Positions 1,863 through 46,472 of a stretch of 64,000 bases of DNA are shown piece after piece. Each line of letters starts with the position of its first letter. Positions within the stretch are counted from its first letter, which is position 1. The notes below the pieces were generated by a model that worked only from the letters and a program-made list of their open reading frames with translations, did no database searches and had not been told where the DNA came from. Source of the stretch: [Zimmermannella] bifida NBRC 103089 (lineage in GTDB: Bacteria > Actinomycetota > Actinomycetes > Actinomycetales > Microbacteriaceae); assembly GCF_001570925.1 (NCBI RefSeq), contig NZ_BCSP01000002.1:1-64000 (forward strand). The letters are read 5' to 3'. The position numbers and the translations under genes are program-made.

Positions 1863-4800
1863 GTGGCCTGGTTACTCGCGCTTTTTGCAGTAACCAGCGT
1901 GTCGCTGCCACTTCTTCGCCGCCAGCTCGGCACTGGCGTCTTTGCCATTGCGGCCATTGTGTCTGCCGCTGCAGCGGTCGTGACCGCATTGCAGCTTCCC
2001 GAGATTCTCAGCACCGGCGCGATCACCGAAACGGCGCCGTGGGTACCGCAGCTCGGGCTGAACCTGGACGTGCGGATCGATGCGCTCGGATGGCTCATGG
2101 CCATGATCGTTACCGGTATCGGCACTCTCGTGCTCGGCTATTGCCACCGATACTTCGACAACGATGAGCCAGGCCTTGGCCGGTTCGCGGCAGCACTGCT
2201 CGGCTTTGCCGGTGTGATGTACGGGCTCGTGACCACCGACAACATTTACCTGTTGTTCGTGTTCTGGGAGATCACGAGCGTGCTGTCGTTCGTGCTGATC
2301 GGTCACTACACCGGTCGTCGCCCTTCACGCGGTGCTGCCATGCAGGCGCTGCTGGTCACGACGCTCGGTGGTCTGGCGATGATGATCGGCGTGGTGATCC
2401 TGGCGACAACCGCGCAAACCCCGTTGCTTCACGAGATCGTGGCGCATGATTTTCCGCACTCGCCGCTGGTGATCACCGCGGTGATGCTGGTGCTCGCCGG
2501 GGCCATCACCAAATCGGCAATCGTGCCATTCCACTTCTGGCTACCCGGTGCCATGGCAGCACCGACGCCGGTCTCGGCCTACCTGCACGCCGCATCCATG
2601 GTGAAAGCGGGCATTTATCTGGTGCTTCGTCTCGCCCCCGGAATTGCCGAGGTTCCTGGTGTGCGTGAAACGCTCATCGTCCTGGGGATCTGGACGATGC
2701 TCGTTGGCGGATGGCGGTCGCTGCGGCAGTTCGACCTCAAGCTGATTCTTGCGTTCGGCACGGTATCGCAACTCGGATTCCTCATGGTTGTGGCTGGGTT
2801 CGGCACACGAGATGCCGTGCACGCGGCCATGGCGATGCTGCTCGGCCACGCACTGTTCAAAGCAGCGCTCTTCCTCTGCGTCGGTACCATCGACCACCGG
2901 TTTGGTACGCGCGATGTCCGTAAGCTCAGCGGCCTCGGCCGGACCATGCCGGTACTTGCTGCCACGGCGATCATTTCGGGTGCATCCATGGCGGGTATCG
3001 CGCCGCTGTGGGGATTCGTCGCCAAAGAAGCGGTATTTACCGCGTTCATCCAGGGCATGGCACACGGTGACACCTGGGCACTGGTCGCCTGTATTGGCAC
3101 GGCGATCGGTTCGGTACTCACGGTCGCATACACCGCGCGGTTACTCTACGGCGCGTTCGCACAGAAGCCCGGTCGTACACCGACAGCGGCAACACACAGT
3201 GATCCGCTCGAGCTGATTTCTCCGATCGTGCTGACGATCATTACCGTCGCGCTGCCGTTTGTCGCCAGCAACGTTGACCCGGTGTTGGCGCACTATGCCG
3301 ACGGCGTTCCTGCACTTGACCCCGCGCATCCGTACCACCTGGCAATTTGGCACGGTTTCGAACCGGCGCTATGGATCTCGCTGGGTACGCTCGCGCTCGG
3401 CATTGTCTTGTTTGTCGGGCGCAGCGCGGTCGCGCGGATCCAATCGCTCGTACCACCACTATTTGAATCGGCGCGTGGTTACTGGGCGACGCTGCGCCTG
3501 GTCGACTTGACCGCAACGCAGGTCACCTCGGCCACACAGCGAGGTTCGCTGCCGTTCTATCTGACCTGCATCTACCTGGTGCTGATCGTGGCGATGGTTG
3601 CGTCATTCGTGCGCATCGACATTGGCGCGTTGGACCTCGAACTCAGCCTGAACTGGCCGCAGACCGCCGGCGTCATTGCCATGTGCGCCGCCGCGATTGC
3701 CGCAACCGGTGCCCAGCGACGCTTCCAGGGCGTCGTCTTGGTCGGCGTGACGGGGTACGCCATGGCGGCCGTCTTCGGATTCTCGGGCGCTCCTGACCTC
3801 GCTACCACGCAGGCACTCATCGAGACCATGTCGCTCGTTGTGTTCGTGCTCGTGTTGCGCCGGCTTCCGGCCAAGCACGCGGTAAGTCAATCGAACCTGC
3901 CTCGTTTGCTGCGATGGGGAATTGCCATCGGCGTTGCCACCGTCATTGGTGGTGCGGTCCTTATCGCGATGGGTAACCGGATCTTCCCGTCGGACGGACT
4001 TGCGTTCAGTGATATGGCGGTGCACGGCGGTCACGGTACCAACGTCGTGAACGTGACCCTGGTCGATATTCGCGGTTGGGACACCATGGGCGAGCTATCG
4101 GTATTGATCGCGGCGGCGACCGGCGTCGCGAGCCTGATCTACCTGAAGCAGCGCAGCCGTCATACGAGCCAGTCGAGCGTCGGTTCGCAAGACCGCACGC
4201 TGCTGCGTCGCCTGGTAACTTCGGCGCCGACGCCGGAGATGCTCGAACGTCGCCGGGCCGATGAATCTCGACGCATGTGGCTGATTGCCGGACACTCGCT
4301 TGCGCCAGAGCACCGTTCGATCGTGGTCGAAGTGCTCGTGCGTCTGATCTTCCATGCCATGATCATCACTTCGCTGTTCCTGCTCTTTGCCGGGCACAAC
4401 GAACCTGGCGGCGGTTTCGCGGGCGGCGTGGTCGCCGGACTCGCACTTACCGCGCGGTACCTTGCGGGCGGCTATCAAGAACTCGACGAAGCCGTGCGAA
4501 TTGATGCCGGTCGATTGCTCGGTATCGGGATGGTGCTGGCTGCGGGCAGTGCGCTGGTACCGATGTTCTTCGGCCAGGCTCCGCTGACCTCGTCGTGGAT
4601 CGATACCGAAATTCCGTTCCTTGGCGATTTCGTGTTTGTGAGCTCCACGGTCTTTGACGTGGGCGTGTATCTCGTGGTCGTGGGTCTGGTCATCGACATT
4701 CTGCGATCGTTGGCTAGCCAGCTCGACCGCTGGGCAGAGAACGAAGAACTCGGGCGCGATGACATCAGCGCGGTCGTGCTTGACGAATCTGAGATTCGTT

Positions 4801-42525: not shown

Positions 42526-42600
42526 TGGGGTATGGTGTAATTGGCAACACGGCTGATTCTGGTTCAGTTGTTCTTGGTTCGAGTCCAGGTACCCCAGCCA
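42526..42600 (+). tRNA. tRNA-Gln (anticodon CTG), CCA encoded
   Basis: A full cloverleaf: acceptor TGGGGTA (42526-42532) with TACCCCA (42590-42596), D arm, anticodon arm GCTGA-TTCTGGT-TCAGT with CTG at loop positions 3-5, and T arm with GGTTCGAGTCC. The discriminator G (42597) is followed by genomic CCA. A terminator hairpin starts two bases later. Confidence 0.95.
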
Positions 42601-42602
42601 AC

Positions 42603-42630
42603 AATCCCAACCGATTTGGTTGGGATATTT
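42603..42630 (+). terminator. Terminator of tRNA-Gln
   Basis: ATCCCAACC (42604-42612), loop GATTT, GGTTGGGAT (42618-42626), followed by ATTTTG. A compact Rho-independent terminator directly after the tRNA. Confidence 0.9.
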
Positions 42631-42730
42631 TGTTGCCCGCTATACGGGCCGCCTCTGAGCGTCTGGTTTCTTTGCTGCTTGCGGCCCGGTGATGCACCCT
42701 GCCGACATGTTCGCCTCCGACCTGGCTCGC

Positions 42731-42811
42731 CTCCGGTTTGGTGCAGGATTCGGGGGTGGCGGGGTGTTATTCGCCTCGGGTCGCTGCGGATTGCACCATC
42801 TTGGAGATTTT
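42731..42811. repeat. Palindromic repeat unit A (REP-like)
   Basis: One of three related units of about 80 bases. The core GGTGCA (42740-42745) pairs with TGCACC (42792-42797), and the right flank ATCTTGGAGAT matches units B and C. The left outer arm is degenerate (CTCCGGTTT). The interior shares CAGGATTCGGGG and GGGGTGTTATTC with unit C. Confidence 0.75.
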
Positions 42812-42901
42812 CCTCCGGGACTCTTCTGCGGTGTCGCCGCGCCCAGTAGCGCCTCACACCGCAAATCCTCGGGTGGAGCCGCCTCGGGCATTTGGTGGAG
42901 G

Positions 42902-42980
42902 ATCTCCAAGCTGGTGCAGAGTTCGGGGTCTGGAGGTGCTATTCACCTCGCAGCGCTGCGGATTGCACCATGTTGGAGAT
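42902..42980. repeat. Palindromic repeat unit B (REP-like)
   Basis: The left arm ATCTCCAAGCTGGTGCA (42902-42918) and right arm TGCACCATGTTGGAGAT (42964-42980) form a 17-base stem with two mismatches. An inner stem GAGGTG (42933-42938) and CACCTC (42944-42949) has a CTATT loop. The most complete of the three copies. Confidence 0.8.
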
Positions 42981-43028
42981 TTTCGACTCTTGGGGTTCTG
43001 TCGGGTGCAGCAACCCGTTGAGTGGGGC

Positions 43029-43056
43029 CACCTCGAAGCGTCGAACTGTCGAGGTG
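43029..43056. repeat. Short inverted repeat between units B and C
   Basis: CACCTCGA (43029-43036) and TCGAGGTG (43049-43056) with a 12-base spacer repeat the inner-stem sequence of the larger units. Possibly a decayed fragment of a fourth copy. Confidence 0.5.
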
Positions 43057-43085
43057 ATGCATTGCTGAGGTATTGGAGGTCGGGC

Positions 43086-43164
43086 GTCTCGAGGGTGGTG
43101 CAGGATTCGGGGTCTCGGGGTGTTATTCACCTCGAGGCACCGCAGGCTGCACCACCTTGGAGAT
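43086..43164. repeat. Palindromic repeat unit C (REP-like)
   Basis: The left arm GTCTCGAGGGTGGTGCA (43086-43102) and right arm TGCACCACCTTGGAGAT (43148-43164) are imperfect complements. An inner stem CTCGGGGTG (43114-43122) pairs with CACCTCGAG (43128-43136) around TTATT. The unit ends 40 bases from the kdpE stop, so it lies in the kdpE 3' region. Confidence 0.8.
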
Positions 43165-43203: not shown

Positions 43204-43905
43204 CTACTGAGCACCCACGAGCCGGTACCCCATCCCCGGCTCCGTGAGGATGTGTTCGGGACTCGCCGGGTCCACCTCGAGTTTGCGGCGCAGTTGCGAT
43301 ACGTACAGTCGCAGGTACCCGGTGTCTTCGGCGTGATCGGTACCCCAGATGTGCTTCAGAATGGTTTGGCGCGTCACGAGCTTCCCGGCATTCCGCACCA
43401 GAATCTCCAGGAACTGCCACTCGGTCGGGGTGAGGCGCACCGAACGAGTCTCACCGTTGCTCGTGCGCGTCACGCTATGCGCAGCAAGATCAACGGCCAC
43501 CTCGCCGAAACGCACCTGCGGTGCGGCGCTCACCGGTTCGTCCTTCGGGAGCCGACGGGTCAGCGCCCGCACCCGGGCGAGCAGCTCCTCAATCGCGAAC
43601 GGTTTCACGATGTAGTCGTCCGCACCCGCATCCAGCACCTCGACCTTATTTGCGGCACCCGCGCGGCCCGAGACGACCAGGATCGGCACCTGCGACCATC
43701 CCCGAATTGCGTGAATCACCTCGACCCCGTCGAGCCGGGGCATCCCCAGGTCGAGCAGCACGAGGTCGGGATGGTGCTCGATCGCGGCCGCAATGGTCTC
43801 CGCACCGTCGGCGGCCGTGAAAATACGGTAGCCCTTGGCGGTGAGGGTAATGCGCAGCGCCCGCAAAATCTGCGGGTCATCGTCGGCGATCAGGATATTC
43901 ATCAT
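43204..43905 (-). CDS. kdpE: Two-component response regulator KdpE
   Basis: A 233-residue OmpR-family regulator that turns on the kdp operon under potassium limitation. The receiver domain (1-115) has the acidic pocket ADDD (8-10), the phospho-acceptor D52 in LVLLDLGMP and the conserved Lys in YIVKPF. The winged-helix DNA-binding domain (about 130-230) has LTPTEWQFLEILVRNAGKLV and ends GMGYRLVG. It is the last gene of the operon, five bases after kdpD. A repeat unit follows its stop. Confidence 0.95.
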   Translation of the reverse strand: MMNILIADDDPQILRALRITLTAKGYRIFTAADGAETIAAAIEHHPDLVLLDLGMPRLDGVEVIHAIRGWSQVPILVVSGRAGAANKVEVLDAGADDYIVKPFAIEELLARVRALTRRLPKDEPVSAAPQVRFGEVAVDLAAHSVTRTSNGETRSVRLTPTEWQFLEILVRNAGKLVTRQTILKHIWGTDHAEDTGYLRLYVSQLRRKLEVDPASPEHILTEPGMGYRLVGAQ

Positions 43906-43910
43906 TGGTC

Positions 43911-46472
43911 CTACAGCGTATCGTCACCGGCGTCGGTGCCCGTCGCGGCGGCGGCGCGGGGCACCGTGATCACCATGGTCAACCCGCCACCCGGGGTCGC
44001 CTCGGGTGTCAGCGTGCCGTTCATCGATTCAACAAAGCCGCGCGAGAGCGCCAATCCAAGACCGAGGCCGGTCGAGTTATCAGTATCTCCCAGGCGCTGG
44101 AACGGCACAAAGATCTGGTCGTGTCGCTCGGGCTCCACACCCGGTCCGCGGTCGATGACGCGGATCTCGACGGTATCGCCGAACACACTCGTGCTCACGT
44201 GCACCGGCACGTCCACGGGGCTGTGCCGCTCGGCATTGGTGAGCAGGTTTACGAGCGCGCGCTGCAACAGCACCGGGTCGATCATCGCCAGCGCACCGTC
44301 GTGGTTGAGGCCGAGGGTCACGCGGTCGGGGCCAGCACCGAGTTCATCCAGGGCCGCGGCGATCGGCTCGGCCGGGTCGTTCGGCGAACAGTGCAATCGC
44401 AGGGTGCCCGCCTGGATGCGGGTGACATCCAGCAGGTCCGTCACGAGGGCGCCAAGCGAGGTCAGGCTCTCCTCCGCGGTGGCCAGCAGCTCCTCGCGAT
44501 CATCCTCCGACAGCTGCGGGCCCGCGAGCCGGATCCCGCCGATCGCGGCGGTGGCCGCAGCCAGCGGCTTGCGCAGATCGTGACTGAGCGCCGACAGCAA
44601 AGCACCGCGGATGCGGTCGGATGCGGCAAGCGGCTCGATGCTCTTTGCCGTTTCGCTCAGCTCCTCGAACTCCATCGCGGCCGTCAGCTGCGCCGTGATG
44701 ACCGCGAGCAAGCGCTGCTCGGAGGCGTGCAGCTCGGCGCCGTGCAGCTCGAGCACGGCGGTCTCGCCGATCGGGATGCTCGTGAATCGCTCATCGCGCA
44801 CCGGTTCGCCCGCGGTGGCGAGCACCGTGTCGCCCGCCTCCCCGGAACCCCCAGCGTTCGCAGCGTCGGTTCGCACTAGCCGCACCCCGGGAATCTGCAG
44901 GGCTTCGCGGGTGCGATCCACGAGCGCCTGGATCGCATTATCGCCGCGCAGCACGCTACCGGCGACGGTTTGAATCAGCTCCGACTCGGCGGCGGCGCGC
45001 CGTGCGATGCGGGTGCGGCGCGCGGCGCGGTCCACGATGAAGCTCACCAGCGCTGCGGCAACCACCGACATGAGCAGGGCCAGCCAGTGCTCGGGCTGAT
45101 AGATGTGCACTGTCGAGTACGGCTCGATGAAGTAGTAGTCGATTGTCACGCCCGACAGCACCGCGGTGATGAGCGCCGGCCACAGGCCGCCGACCAGCGC
45201 CGTAACCACAATCAGCAGCTGGTAGCAAATACCGATGCTCCACACCGCATCCGGCCCTCGGAACGGGAAGAGCGCGGCGGTGAGCAGCGGCCCACCGATG
45301 AGGGCGAGCACAAAACCGAGGATGCGGCGCAGTCGCGTGAGTGCGCCGGTGATGCGGGGGAGGGTCCAGCGCTCGGCGGCCCCGGCAATATTGACCATGT
45401 GCACGTCGATATCGCCGGATTCGCGCACGACCGTGGCGCCGATTCCGCGCCCGGTGAGGGCGGAGACGAGCCAGCCGCGTCGACTCGCGCCGAGCACGAG
45501 CTGGGTGGCGTTCACGGACTTCGCGAACTCGACCAGCGCGGCGGGGATATCGTTCCCGGCAACCTGGTGGTAGCTGCCGTTGAGCTGTTCCACCAGCGCC
45601 CGCTGCATGGCGAGGGCCGCCGGGTTCCCGGAGCGCAGGCCATCCTGGCTGGTGACGTGCACGGCGAGCAGCTCGCCACCGGCACGGGCGGCGATCCGCG
45701 CGCCGCGACGCAGCAGCGTCTCACCCTCGGGGCCGCCGGTGAGGGCGACCACGACCCGCTCGCGCGCCTCCCAGGTCGCGCCGATGCCGTACATTTCGCG
45801 ATACCGCTGGAGGGCGATATCGACCTCATCCACGAGCCAGATCAGCGTCAATTCGCGCAGTGCCGTGAGGTTACCGAGGCGGAAGTAGTTCGAAAGGGCC
45901 GCGTCGATGCGGTCGGGCGGGTAGACCACGCCGCGCGTGAGCCGGTCGCGCAGTGCCTGCGGGGCGAGGTCAACCAGCTCGATCTGATCGGCGGTGCGCA
46001 GCACCGAGTCGGGTACGGTTTCGCGCTGCGGCACCCCGGTGATCTGCTCGACCACATCGTTGAGGGATTCGATGTGCTGAATGTTGAGCGTCGAGATGAC
46101 GTCGATGCCCGCCGCGAGGAGTTCCTCTACGTCCTGCCAGCGCTTGTTGTGGCGCGGGCCGGTGGCGTCATCGGCGTGGGTGTTGGTGTGCGCCAGCTCA
46201 TCGACCAGCGCGATTTCGGGTCGGCGGGTGAGCACGGCGTCGAGGTCCATCTCCTCAACTTCGACACCGCGATACGTCACCCGCGCCCGGGGGACGGACG
46301 GCAGGCCCTCGGCCATGCGGGCAGTGGCCTGCCGTCCATGTGTTTCGAGAAAGCCGACCACCACATCCTTGCCCTCAGCAAGGAGGCGTTGGCCCTCTTC
46401 GAGCATGGTGAACGTCTTGCCGACACCTGGAGCCGCTCCGAGGAGGACTCGGAGCCGACCGCGTTCGCCCAT
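43911..46472 (-). CDS. kdpD: Sensor histidine kinase KdpD
   Basis: An 853-residue membrane sensor of potassium limitation. Domains in order: the N-terminal KdpD domain with a Walker A (GAAPGVGKT, about residues 12-20) and VDELAHTN, a Usp-like domain (about 245-370), a four-helix DUF4118 membrane region (about 385-490), a GAF-like segment, a HisKA domain with the phospho-acceptor His in LSALSHDLRKPLAA, and an HATPase domain with NLLTNAERHSP, DRGPGV and GLGLGLALSRGF. Length is typical. It starts two bases after kdpC, with AAGGGAT upstream. Confidence 0.95.
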   Translation of the reverse strand: MGERGRLRVLLGAAPGVGKTFTMLEEGQRLLAEGKDVVVGFLETHGRQATARMAEGLPSVPRARVTYRGVEVEEMDLDAVLTRRPEIALVDELAHTNTHADDATGPRHNKRWQDVEELLAAGIDVISTLNIQHIESLNDVVEQITGVPQRETVPDSVLRTADQIELVDLAPQALRDRLTRGVVYPPDRIDAALSNYFRLGNLTALRELTLIWLVDEVDIALQRYREMYGIGATWEARERVVVALTGGPEGETLLRRGARIAARAGGELLAVHVTSQDGLRSGNPAALAMQRALVEQLNGSYHQVAGNDIPAALVEFAKSVNATQLVLGASRRGWLVSALTGRGIGATVVRESGDIDVHMVNIAGAAERWTLPRITGALTRLRRILGFVLALIGGPLLTAALFPFRGPDAVWSIGICYQLLIVVTALVGGLWPALITAVLSGVTIDYYFIEPYSTVHIYQPEHWLALLMSVVAAALVSFIVDRAARRTRIARRAAAESELIQTVAGSVLRGDNAIQALVDRTREALQIPGVRLVRTDAANAGGSGEAGDTVLATAGEPVRDERFTSIPIGETAVLELHGAELHASEQRLLAVITAQLTAAMEFEELSETAKSIEPLAASDRIRGALLSALSHDLRKPLAAATAAIGGIRLAGPQLSEDDREELLATAEESLTSLGALVTDLLDVTRIQAGTLRLHCSPNDPAEPIAAALDELGAGPDRVTLGLNHDGALAMIDPVLLQRALVNLLTNAERHSPVDVPVHVSTSVFGDTVEIRVIDRGPGVEPERHDQIFVPFQRLGDTDNSTGLGLGLALSRGFVESMNGTLTPEATPGGGLTMVITVPRAAAATGTDAGDDTL

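Follow-up and report, generated by a model that had tools for sequence, protein, structure and literature searches.

The window analysed here, 64 kb of DNA on contig C2 of a 2.13-Mb draft genome in 37 contigs (G000), carries three palindromic repeat units between a tRNA-Gln gene and the convergent kdpE (Table 1), as an earlier note on this DNA had claimed, and their boundaries lie within three bases of those given then. All follow one layout of two inverted arms of about 17 bp, two linkers of about 12 bp and a central palindrome. The hairpin between the tRNA gene and the units is probably an intrinsic terminator, judging by its sequence. With at most one mismatch allowed, the window contains TTGGAGATTTTC three times, where 0.09 occurrences would be expected. 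The note's further statement, that ATCTCCAA and TTGGAGAT flank the outer stem, holds on both sides for the middle unit only, because the 5' arms of units 1 and 3 are worn (GCCTCCGG and GTCTCGAG, respectively). On the plus strand, units 1, 2 and 3 fold with RNA z-scores of -2.1, -7.3 and -8.6 (200 dinucleotide shuffles each), and the two spacers have at most weak mutual similarity (z 2.6; the best of 300 shuffles scored higher). The small inverted repeat CACCTCGA/TCGAGGTG that had also been reported in the second spacer is present and resembles the unit core; it is possibly a unit remnant, but genome-wide covariance-model searches called no unit there.

Table 1. Features of the window in and around the repeat units
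Feature	Position	Strand	Description and basis
tRNA-Gln (ctg), upstream neighbour of units	42526..42600	+	
Hairpin with T-rich tail directly after tRNA-Gln, ahead of units	42605..42635	+	inverted repeat in sequence
Repeat unit 1	42729..42808	+	80 bp; 5' arm worn, one extra base; covariance model R1 E 5.5e-14
Unit 1 3' arm	42792..42808	+	arm pattern search and alignment
Spacer between units 1 and 2	42809..42901	.	93 bp
Repeat unit 2	42902..42980	+	79 bp; both arms intact; R1 E 1.7e-17
Unit 2 5' arm ATCTCCAAGCTGGTGCA	42902..42918	+	alignment; family pattern is ATCTCCAA, two variable bases, TGGTGCA
Unit 2 central palindromic core TGGAGGTGCTATTCACCTCGC	42931..42951	+	alignment columns 30-50
Unit 2 3' arm TGCACCATGTTGGAGAT	42964..42980	+	arm pattern search and alignment
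Spacer between units 2 and 3	42981..43085	.	105 bp; contains small inverted repeat 43029-43056
Repeat unit 3	43086..43164	+	79 bp; 5' arm worn; R1 E 7.2e-17
Unit 3 3' arm	43148..43164	+	arm pattern search and alignment
kdpE, convergent downstream neighbour of units	43204..43905	-	ORF; name from the earlier note; relatives compared
kdpD-type sensor kinase, gene next to kdpE	43911..46472	-	ORF; DUF4118 proteins among tblastn matches; name inferred

A family of fixed-length units

Searching the whole of G000 for the arm TCTCCAANNTGGTGCA with up to three mismatches returned 137 + 110 matches, whereas the reversed control gave 45 + 56. Among the listed arm matches with no or one mismatch, 23 of 25, including all 16 perfect ones, fall in units spanning 77 or 78 bp. 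Thirteen copies were read off the arm matches and used to build covariance model R1, which added a fourteenth. All but one of the 14 copies are exactly 79 bp long and align without gaps, and unit 1, at 80 bp, is one base longer. Among the 13 copies of 79 bp, mean pairwise identity is 0.84/0.87 in the arms (alignment columns 1-17 and 63-79), 0.72 in the core (columns 30-50) and 0.33/0.38 in the linkers (columns 18-29 and 51-62); the linkers have thus drifted to near-random sequence, near the level of unrelated DNA, with their length conserved. The earlier note had argued that pairing is partly kept while sequence differs. Inside G000 that structural argument fails, because there is no covariation among the 13 copies (3 pairs and 4 both-side-changed cells, versus 3.8 and 6.3 in shuffles). 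Linkers, compared in register, likewise pair no better within a copy than between copies (42 versus 54.8 pairs). What is conserved in G000 is therefore a set of three blocks at fixed spacing and not a continuous hairpin.

Relatives of the family were detected by covariance models only and not by DNA similarity, and BLAST with unit 2 gave no match in 59 relatives. Model R1 found units in two genomes of the same genus as G000, G003 and G008, and a second model, R2, was built from 21 copies of these three genomes. Among 299 genomes of the family, probably Microbacteriaceae judging by gene content, R2 gave matches in five, namely G000, G003, G008, G167, which belongs to another genus, and G145; the absence in the rest is provisional because 15 candidates per genome were scored. 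The G145 match falls within a gene and was set aside as a chance hit. Fuller scoring of 12 genomes, with the two strands collapsed by hand, gave 14 copies in G000, two in G003, 32 in G008 and about 11 in G167 (one a 61-nt partial). The covariance-model search found no unit in G001, G002, G004, G005, G006, G009 or G010, which are seven of the ten other genus members. G007 has a single weak match of 74 nt (C1:1993663-1993736; L181/L210; E 4.8e-5), which was recovered on a repeat search. Clear related families are thus present in two of the ten other genus members and in one other genus. Further copies in the genome and in relatives, with compensatory stem changes, had been proposed as checks on the earlier interpretation, and all were found, the stem changes between species.

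Unit length is also conserved in G008, where 28 of the 32 units are 79 bp and the others 78 or 80 bp. The arms differ by species, being GTGCCGAAnTGTCTCA in G008, GTCGGCGAAGTGGTGCA in G003 and TGTGCAGAAATGGCAGTA in G167, and between species they covary: 62 both-side-changed cells were counted versus 27.7 in shuffles, none of 500 of which was as high, and 15 pairs covary versus at most 8 with partners slid. This alignment comprised 21 copies, all of the 22 identified by that stage except unit 1. Relatedness is not taken into account by the shuffle control, and the covariation reflects few independent events because copies of one genome share arms. Pairing is therefore kept as sequence changes between species but not within G000. 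By eye, a variable base is present in mid-arm in G000, G008 and the Tsukamurella units described below, and five consensus arms fold weakly when taken alone (0 to -1.2 kcal/mol). As exact patterns, the G000 arms matched no locus in the sequence collection, which may omit records near G000, and the G008 arms matched a single locus, in a Trichormus MAG, close to the number expected by chance on our own estimate; in viral contigs neither pattern was found. A blastn search of plasmids with a G167 unit gave merely two Streptomyces matches of 21-22 bp.

Genomic setting and turnover

Genes around the units were called with a simple codon-score caller of our own; where, in a few loci, the 5' end of a called ORF overlaps a unit, its start was probably placed too early. 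Seven of the 12 loci in G000 are convergent and five codirectional, the corresponding numbers for the 16 loci in G008 are five and 11, and neither genome has a divergent locus; one locus in G167 (L149) is divergent. As far as the gene calls go, the units prefer 3' intergenic sites. Between cydB and cydD, inspection shows a hairpin after cydB in G000, G001, G003, G005 and G008, and its T-rich tail is clear everywhere but in G001; behind the hairpin, G003 and G008 carry a unit and the other three genomes none, so unit sites turn over. Between rpsT and a GTPase gene (L140, L157), both G000 and G008 have units after a terminator-like hairpin, each with the arms of its own species, which either common ancestry with concerted arm change or repeated insertion would explain. 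As two sites are common to species, part of the family may be inherited and not newly inserted. The absences reported here rest on the covariance-model search. A separate palindrome scan of the region 3' of kdpE in five other loci and 3' of cydB in ten other genus genomes found only the G003 unit and a coding-like stretch in G010, and its negatives are weak because it counts Watson-Crick pairs only and missed two known G008 units between cydB and cydD.

Most G008 units are arranged in clusters of two to four in one orientation. Two spacers at L136 are identical at 91 of 94 positions, which indicates local tandem duplication in some clusters, and most other spacer pairs are weakly similar. No excess of target-site duplications of 2-9 bp was found, with boundary shifts allowed, around 14 units in G000, 32 in G008 and nine in G167. 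All 32 G008 units lie at C1:711976-1816122 (0.71-1.82 Mb; loci L059, L060, L136-L140 and L202-L208), no further than 0.64 Mb from oriC, which was placed at about 1.352 Mb by the dnaA-box cluster, rpmH and ParA; this clustering was noticed post hoc. Likewise noticed post hoc, 14 of the 16 intergenic loci in G008 point along the replication fork (p 0.004). Unit orientation shows no dependence on that of the genes (7 of 11 codirectional loci; p 0.55). At L144 in G167 and L207 in G008, thus in both genera, units lie near a homologous pair of genes, a groES-like one, named by eye, and the IMP dehydrogenase gene, with a different gene order in each.

A nuclease gene beside the units

At L207 in G008, an ORF (1609-2454) is bracketed by units at 1434-1513 and 2459-2537, which lie at 1.8004 and 1.8015 Mb in that genome. 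The encoded protein matches an AbiEi_4 winged helix (wHTH; E 4.9e-5, just under the Pfam cut-off) and a DUF559/MTES_1575 nuclease domain (E 5.6e-14). When every ORF of 60 aa or more from 218 sources (217 loci and the window) was searched by phmmer with this protein as query, just two further distinct genes emerged, in G003 and G167, both abutting units. The G167 gene (L145, ORF 2506-3402) is bracketed by units at 2439-2515 and 3468-3542, the downstream one overlapping the 3' end of the gene, while in G003 (L141), a genome with two units, one lies 7 bp past the stop codon and none was seen on the other side. Of the three proteins, that of G003 passes the Pfam cut-off for AbiEi_4, and those of G008 and G167 fall short of it. 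A weak, shortened third unit (L207:1217-1283, E 0.0013) is present just upstream of the bracketing pair in G008.

A gene for an AbiEi-type winged helix joined to a DUF559 (Vsr/EDxHD-type) nuclease thus abuts units in all three other clear carriers, on both sides in two of them, which is an association and not a blind test because the loci were fetched for their repeats. With gene numbers per genome assumed, the joint chance of three such adjacencies is about 7e-6 at three genes per genome and ranges from 3e-7 to 2e-4 at one to ten. The nuclease domain matches PDB entries 3r3p ('Mobile intron protein', E 1.9e-10), which we take to be I-Bth0305I, and 3hrl. E184, D210, E220, D222, H227 and D236 are invariant in all six aligned partner proteins, so that the conserved acidic and histidine residues of a Vsr-like nuclease domain are present. 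In G000, neither the 64-kb window nor the surroundings of the 14 units, out to about 2.5 kb, yielded a DUF559 homologue. A partner for the three window units is therefore argued by analogy with the relatives.

As a blind test, loci were also sought by protein match alone, with the partner proteins as queries, in plasmids and viruses. By tblastn, 31 distinct PLSDB records and one phage record, a distant DUF559 match, were found, and a profile search added two viral contigs. Matches in 27 of the 31 PLSDB records cover part of the protein only; those in the remaining four, three from Tsukamurella tyrosinosolvens and one from Actinomyces oris, cover most of its length. Eight loci were examined, these four together with ones from Streptomyces canus, Priestia megaterium and the two viral contigs. 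Palindromes bracket the gene at two of the eight, L218 and L222, both from Tsukamurella, which belongs to another order. The flanking palindromes have 26 and 26 of 38 possible pairs at L218, the downstream one centred on the stop codon, and 24 and 26 of 38 at L222, and in the control 205 Tsukamurella windows reach 24 pairs at most, twice. The other six loci, those of a Tsukamurella paralogue, A. oris, S. canus, Priestia and the two viral contigs, have no flanking palindrome above shuffles or controls.

The L218 palindrome is dispersed: in a collection of 72,556 records, nine of the ten places where it matched lie in seven Tsukamurella records, the query included, and one is a Streptomyces match. 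Five of six loci with this palindrome are at convergent genes and one is codirectional. All eight aligned Tsukamurella units are 72 bp long from TCA to TGA and align without gaps, with identities of 0.87/0.77 in the arms, 0.65 in the core, 0.50/0.45 in the linkers and 0.28/0.29 outside. No dispersed copies of the L222 palindrome were found in the collection. L222 (2335-3437 in T. tyrosinosolvens NZ_LR134466.1) holds a second AbiEi-DUF559 gene, matched in two pieces and apparently broken, with palindromes of another sequence. Judging from their gene content, the plasmid-labelled Tsukamurella records look like pieces of chromosome. In G008, L218 and L222 alike, roughly 90-95 bp separate the end of a unit from the start of the gene or match downstream of it.

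Interpretation and comparison with known systems

Taken together, the sequence evidence leads us to propose, with a probability of roughly 0.6, that the window units are REPIN-like dispersed palindromic elements recognised, and probably spread, by a nuclease of the AbiEi-wHTH/DUF559 type. A dimer of this protein would read the two inverted arms through its winged helices, and its nuclease domains would meet at the central core. Such a dimer would leave arms and core constrained and the linkers free in sequence and fixed in length, and would also explain the variable mid-arm base and the species-specific arms. Nicking or cutting at the core, followed by repair or copying, could allow units to spread to new sites or persist there, sometimes as a whole cassette of unit, gene and unit, and the unit upstream of the partner gene may act as an operator. 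The G000 units would then descend from such a system whose nuclease gene was lost or lies apart from them. The partner protein may instead do no more than bind and regulate, and a cellular function could just as well maintain the divergent copies in G000.

Constrained arms and core with drifting linkers at fixed spacing are also what would be expected if the units were fixed, immobile sites of a cellular DNA-binding protein, selected site by site, such as a regulator or chromosome organiser and perhaps the AbiEi-DUF559 protein itself. The placement of all G008 units around oriC, with 14 of 16 loci along the replication fork, fits this explanation, but both biases were noticed post hoc. We regard it as unlikely: no unit was found in seven of ten other genus members, which argues against a housekeeping need, and an eighth has one weak match. 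The orthologous cydB-cydD site is empty in three genomes, the arms differ greatly between species, and in G008 and G167 units stand on both sides of the partner gene. The further alternative that the units are transcription terminators or RNA hairpins of 3'-UTRs would account for the lack of divergent loci in G000 and G008 (with seven and five convergent ones) and for the strong folding of the plus strand. It is also favoured by the excess of G-U pairs over A-C mismatches in 28 G008 units (88 to 13), yet these units contain 86 other mismatches, and the excess in G000 is merely 9 to 5. At cydB-cydD and rpsT, moreover, inspection places a terminator-like hairpin already ahead of the unit, G008 orientation follows the fork and not the genes, no covariation exists inside G000, and arms common to unrelated genes genome-wide are unexpected for terminators, all of which makes this reading quite improbable. 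By inspection, the T-run after the units is weak and falls short of that of an intrinsic terminator. A structured RNA of the kdpE 3' region, as had been suggested for the window, finds no support as their primary identity, as units adjoin many unrelated genes and Rfam at its gathering score matched only two tRNAs in the window and no unit; they may have a secondary role as RNA.

Two transposase-based explanations fare worse. Inverted ends of about 16 bp, a length-conserved spacer and tandem clusters with shared flanks are features of REPINs in PMC3116915, and would suit classical REPINs moved by a RAYT (Y1 HUH) transposase missing from the assemblies, the driver that had been suggested for the window units. 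However, Pfam Y1_Tnp (PF01797) has no match in G000 or any other of the 12 genomes, three of which are in one or two contigs, and the same search matched five of 14 reference genomes as a control. The consensus arms alone barely fold, whereas each REP is a palindrome, and no GTAG tag was seen by eye, so we consider this reading largely refuted already and very improbable. The 17-bp terminal inverted repeats, the dispersal and the presence/absence differences could also be those of a MITE-type element of a DDE transposase, for which the arms would be the terminal repeats. This too is highly unlikely, given that target-site duplications are not in excess, that all 16 perfect arm matches in G000, a draft genome, lie inside units and none ends a longer element, and that a conserved core between drifting linkers is not the pattern of copies decaying from a single master.

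More tentatively than in the main proposal, and with confidence a little short of even, we suggest that there may be a second, RAYT-independent class of REPIN-like replicators in which fixed-length arm-core-arm palindromes are read by a dimer of a chromosomal AbiEi-wHTH/EDxHD nuclease and co-evolve with it species by species, and which spreads or maintains both solo palindromes and palindrome-gene-palindrome cassettes across actinobacteria, including the window's family and that of Tsukamurella. Within the titles and abstract openings of the open-licence literature, we found no report of DUF559 or AbiEi nucleases with dispersed palindromes. The known partner enzyme of REPINs is a Y1 transposase; if the proposal is true, a Vsr/EDxHD-type nuclease would fill this role in actinobacteria. 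Solitary genes annotated as 'AbiEi family antitoxin domain-containing' or DUF559 would gain a concrete DNA target, one that is very long and modular and is bound by a dimer, and orphan palindromic repeats would gain a candidate driver. PMC8049555 counts REPINs among the commonest families of repeats in bacteria, and PMC3733652 treats repeat families lacking a known transposase as an open question.

A REP- or BIME-like dispersed element, as the earlier note had suspected, is borne out by the 14 copies in G000, and REPINs are the closest match. As described in PMC3116915, REPIN/RAYT systems have highly conserved inverted ends of about 16 bp, a less conserved spacer of fixed length, an extragenic position, hairpin formation, tandem clusters that are ordered and include the flanks, more than one sequence type and a partner gene by the repeats. 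The units share these features, the partner gene lying beside them in the other clear carriers, but lack ends that are themselves palindromic and a RAYT gene near the repeats. They differ further in that the partner combines a wHTH with a Vsr/EDxHD-type nuclease and is not a Y1 HUH transposase, that the arms are not hairpins, that a third conserved block, the core, lies at the centre of the spacer, and that the hosts are actinobacteria. The GTAG/CGTC REPs and untagged REP-like families, the latter mentioned for M. tuberculosis and others, are likewise dispersed palindromes in PMC3733652; those REPs are palindromes of 20-40 bp, whereas the present units are 72-80 bp with three conserved blocks, have no GTAG/CGTC tag that we noted, and abut or bracket a nuclease gene.

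The partner proteins themselves resemble two known groups. With EDxHD homing endonucleases they share a nuclease domain detectable by sequence (E 1.9e-10), and one such enzyme, I-Bth0305I, forms a dimer on a target almost 60 bp long, according to PMC3943268. The family described there is mostly phage-derived, whereas the genes found here are bacterial, solitary and joined to an AbiEi-type wHTH, and lie beside a dispersed palindromic repeat. PMC3985639 describes AbiEi, the antitoxin of type IV abiE systems, as binding paired inverted repeats and as a repressor of its own promoter, and the partner proteins share its N-terminal winged helix. Unlike in AbiEi systems, the genes in L218 and L219 have no annotated AbiEii toxin next to them, the C-terminus of the partner protein is a nuclease, and the sites are dispersed through the genome.
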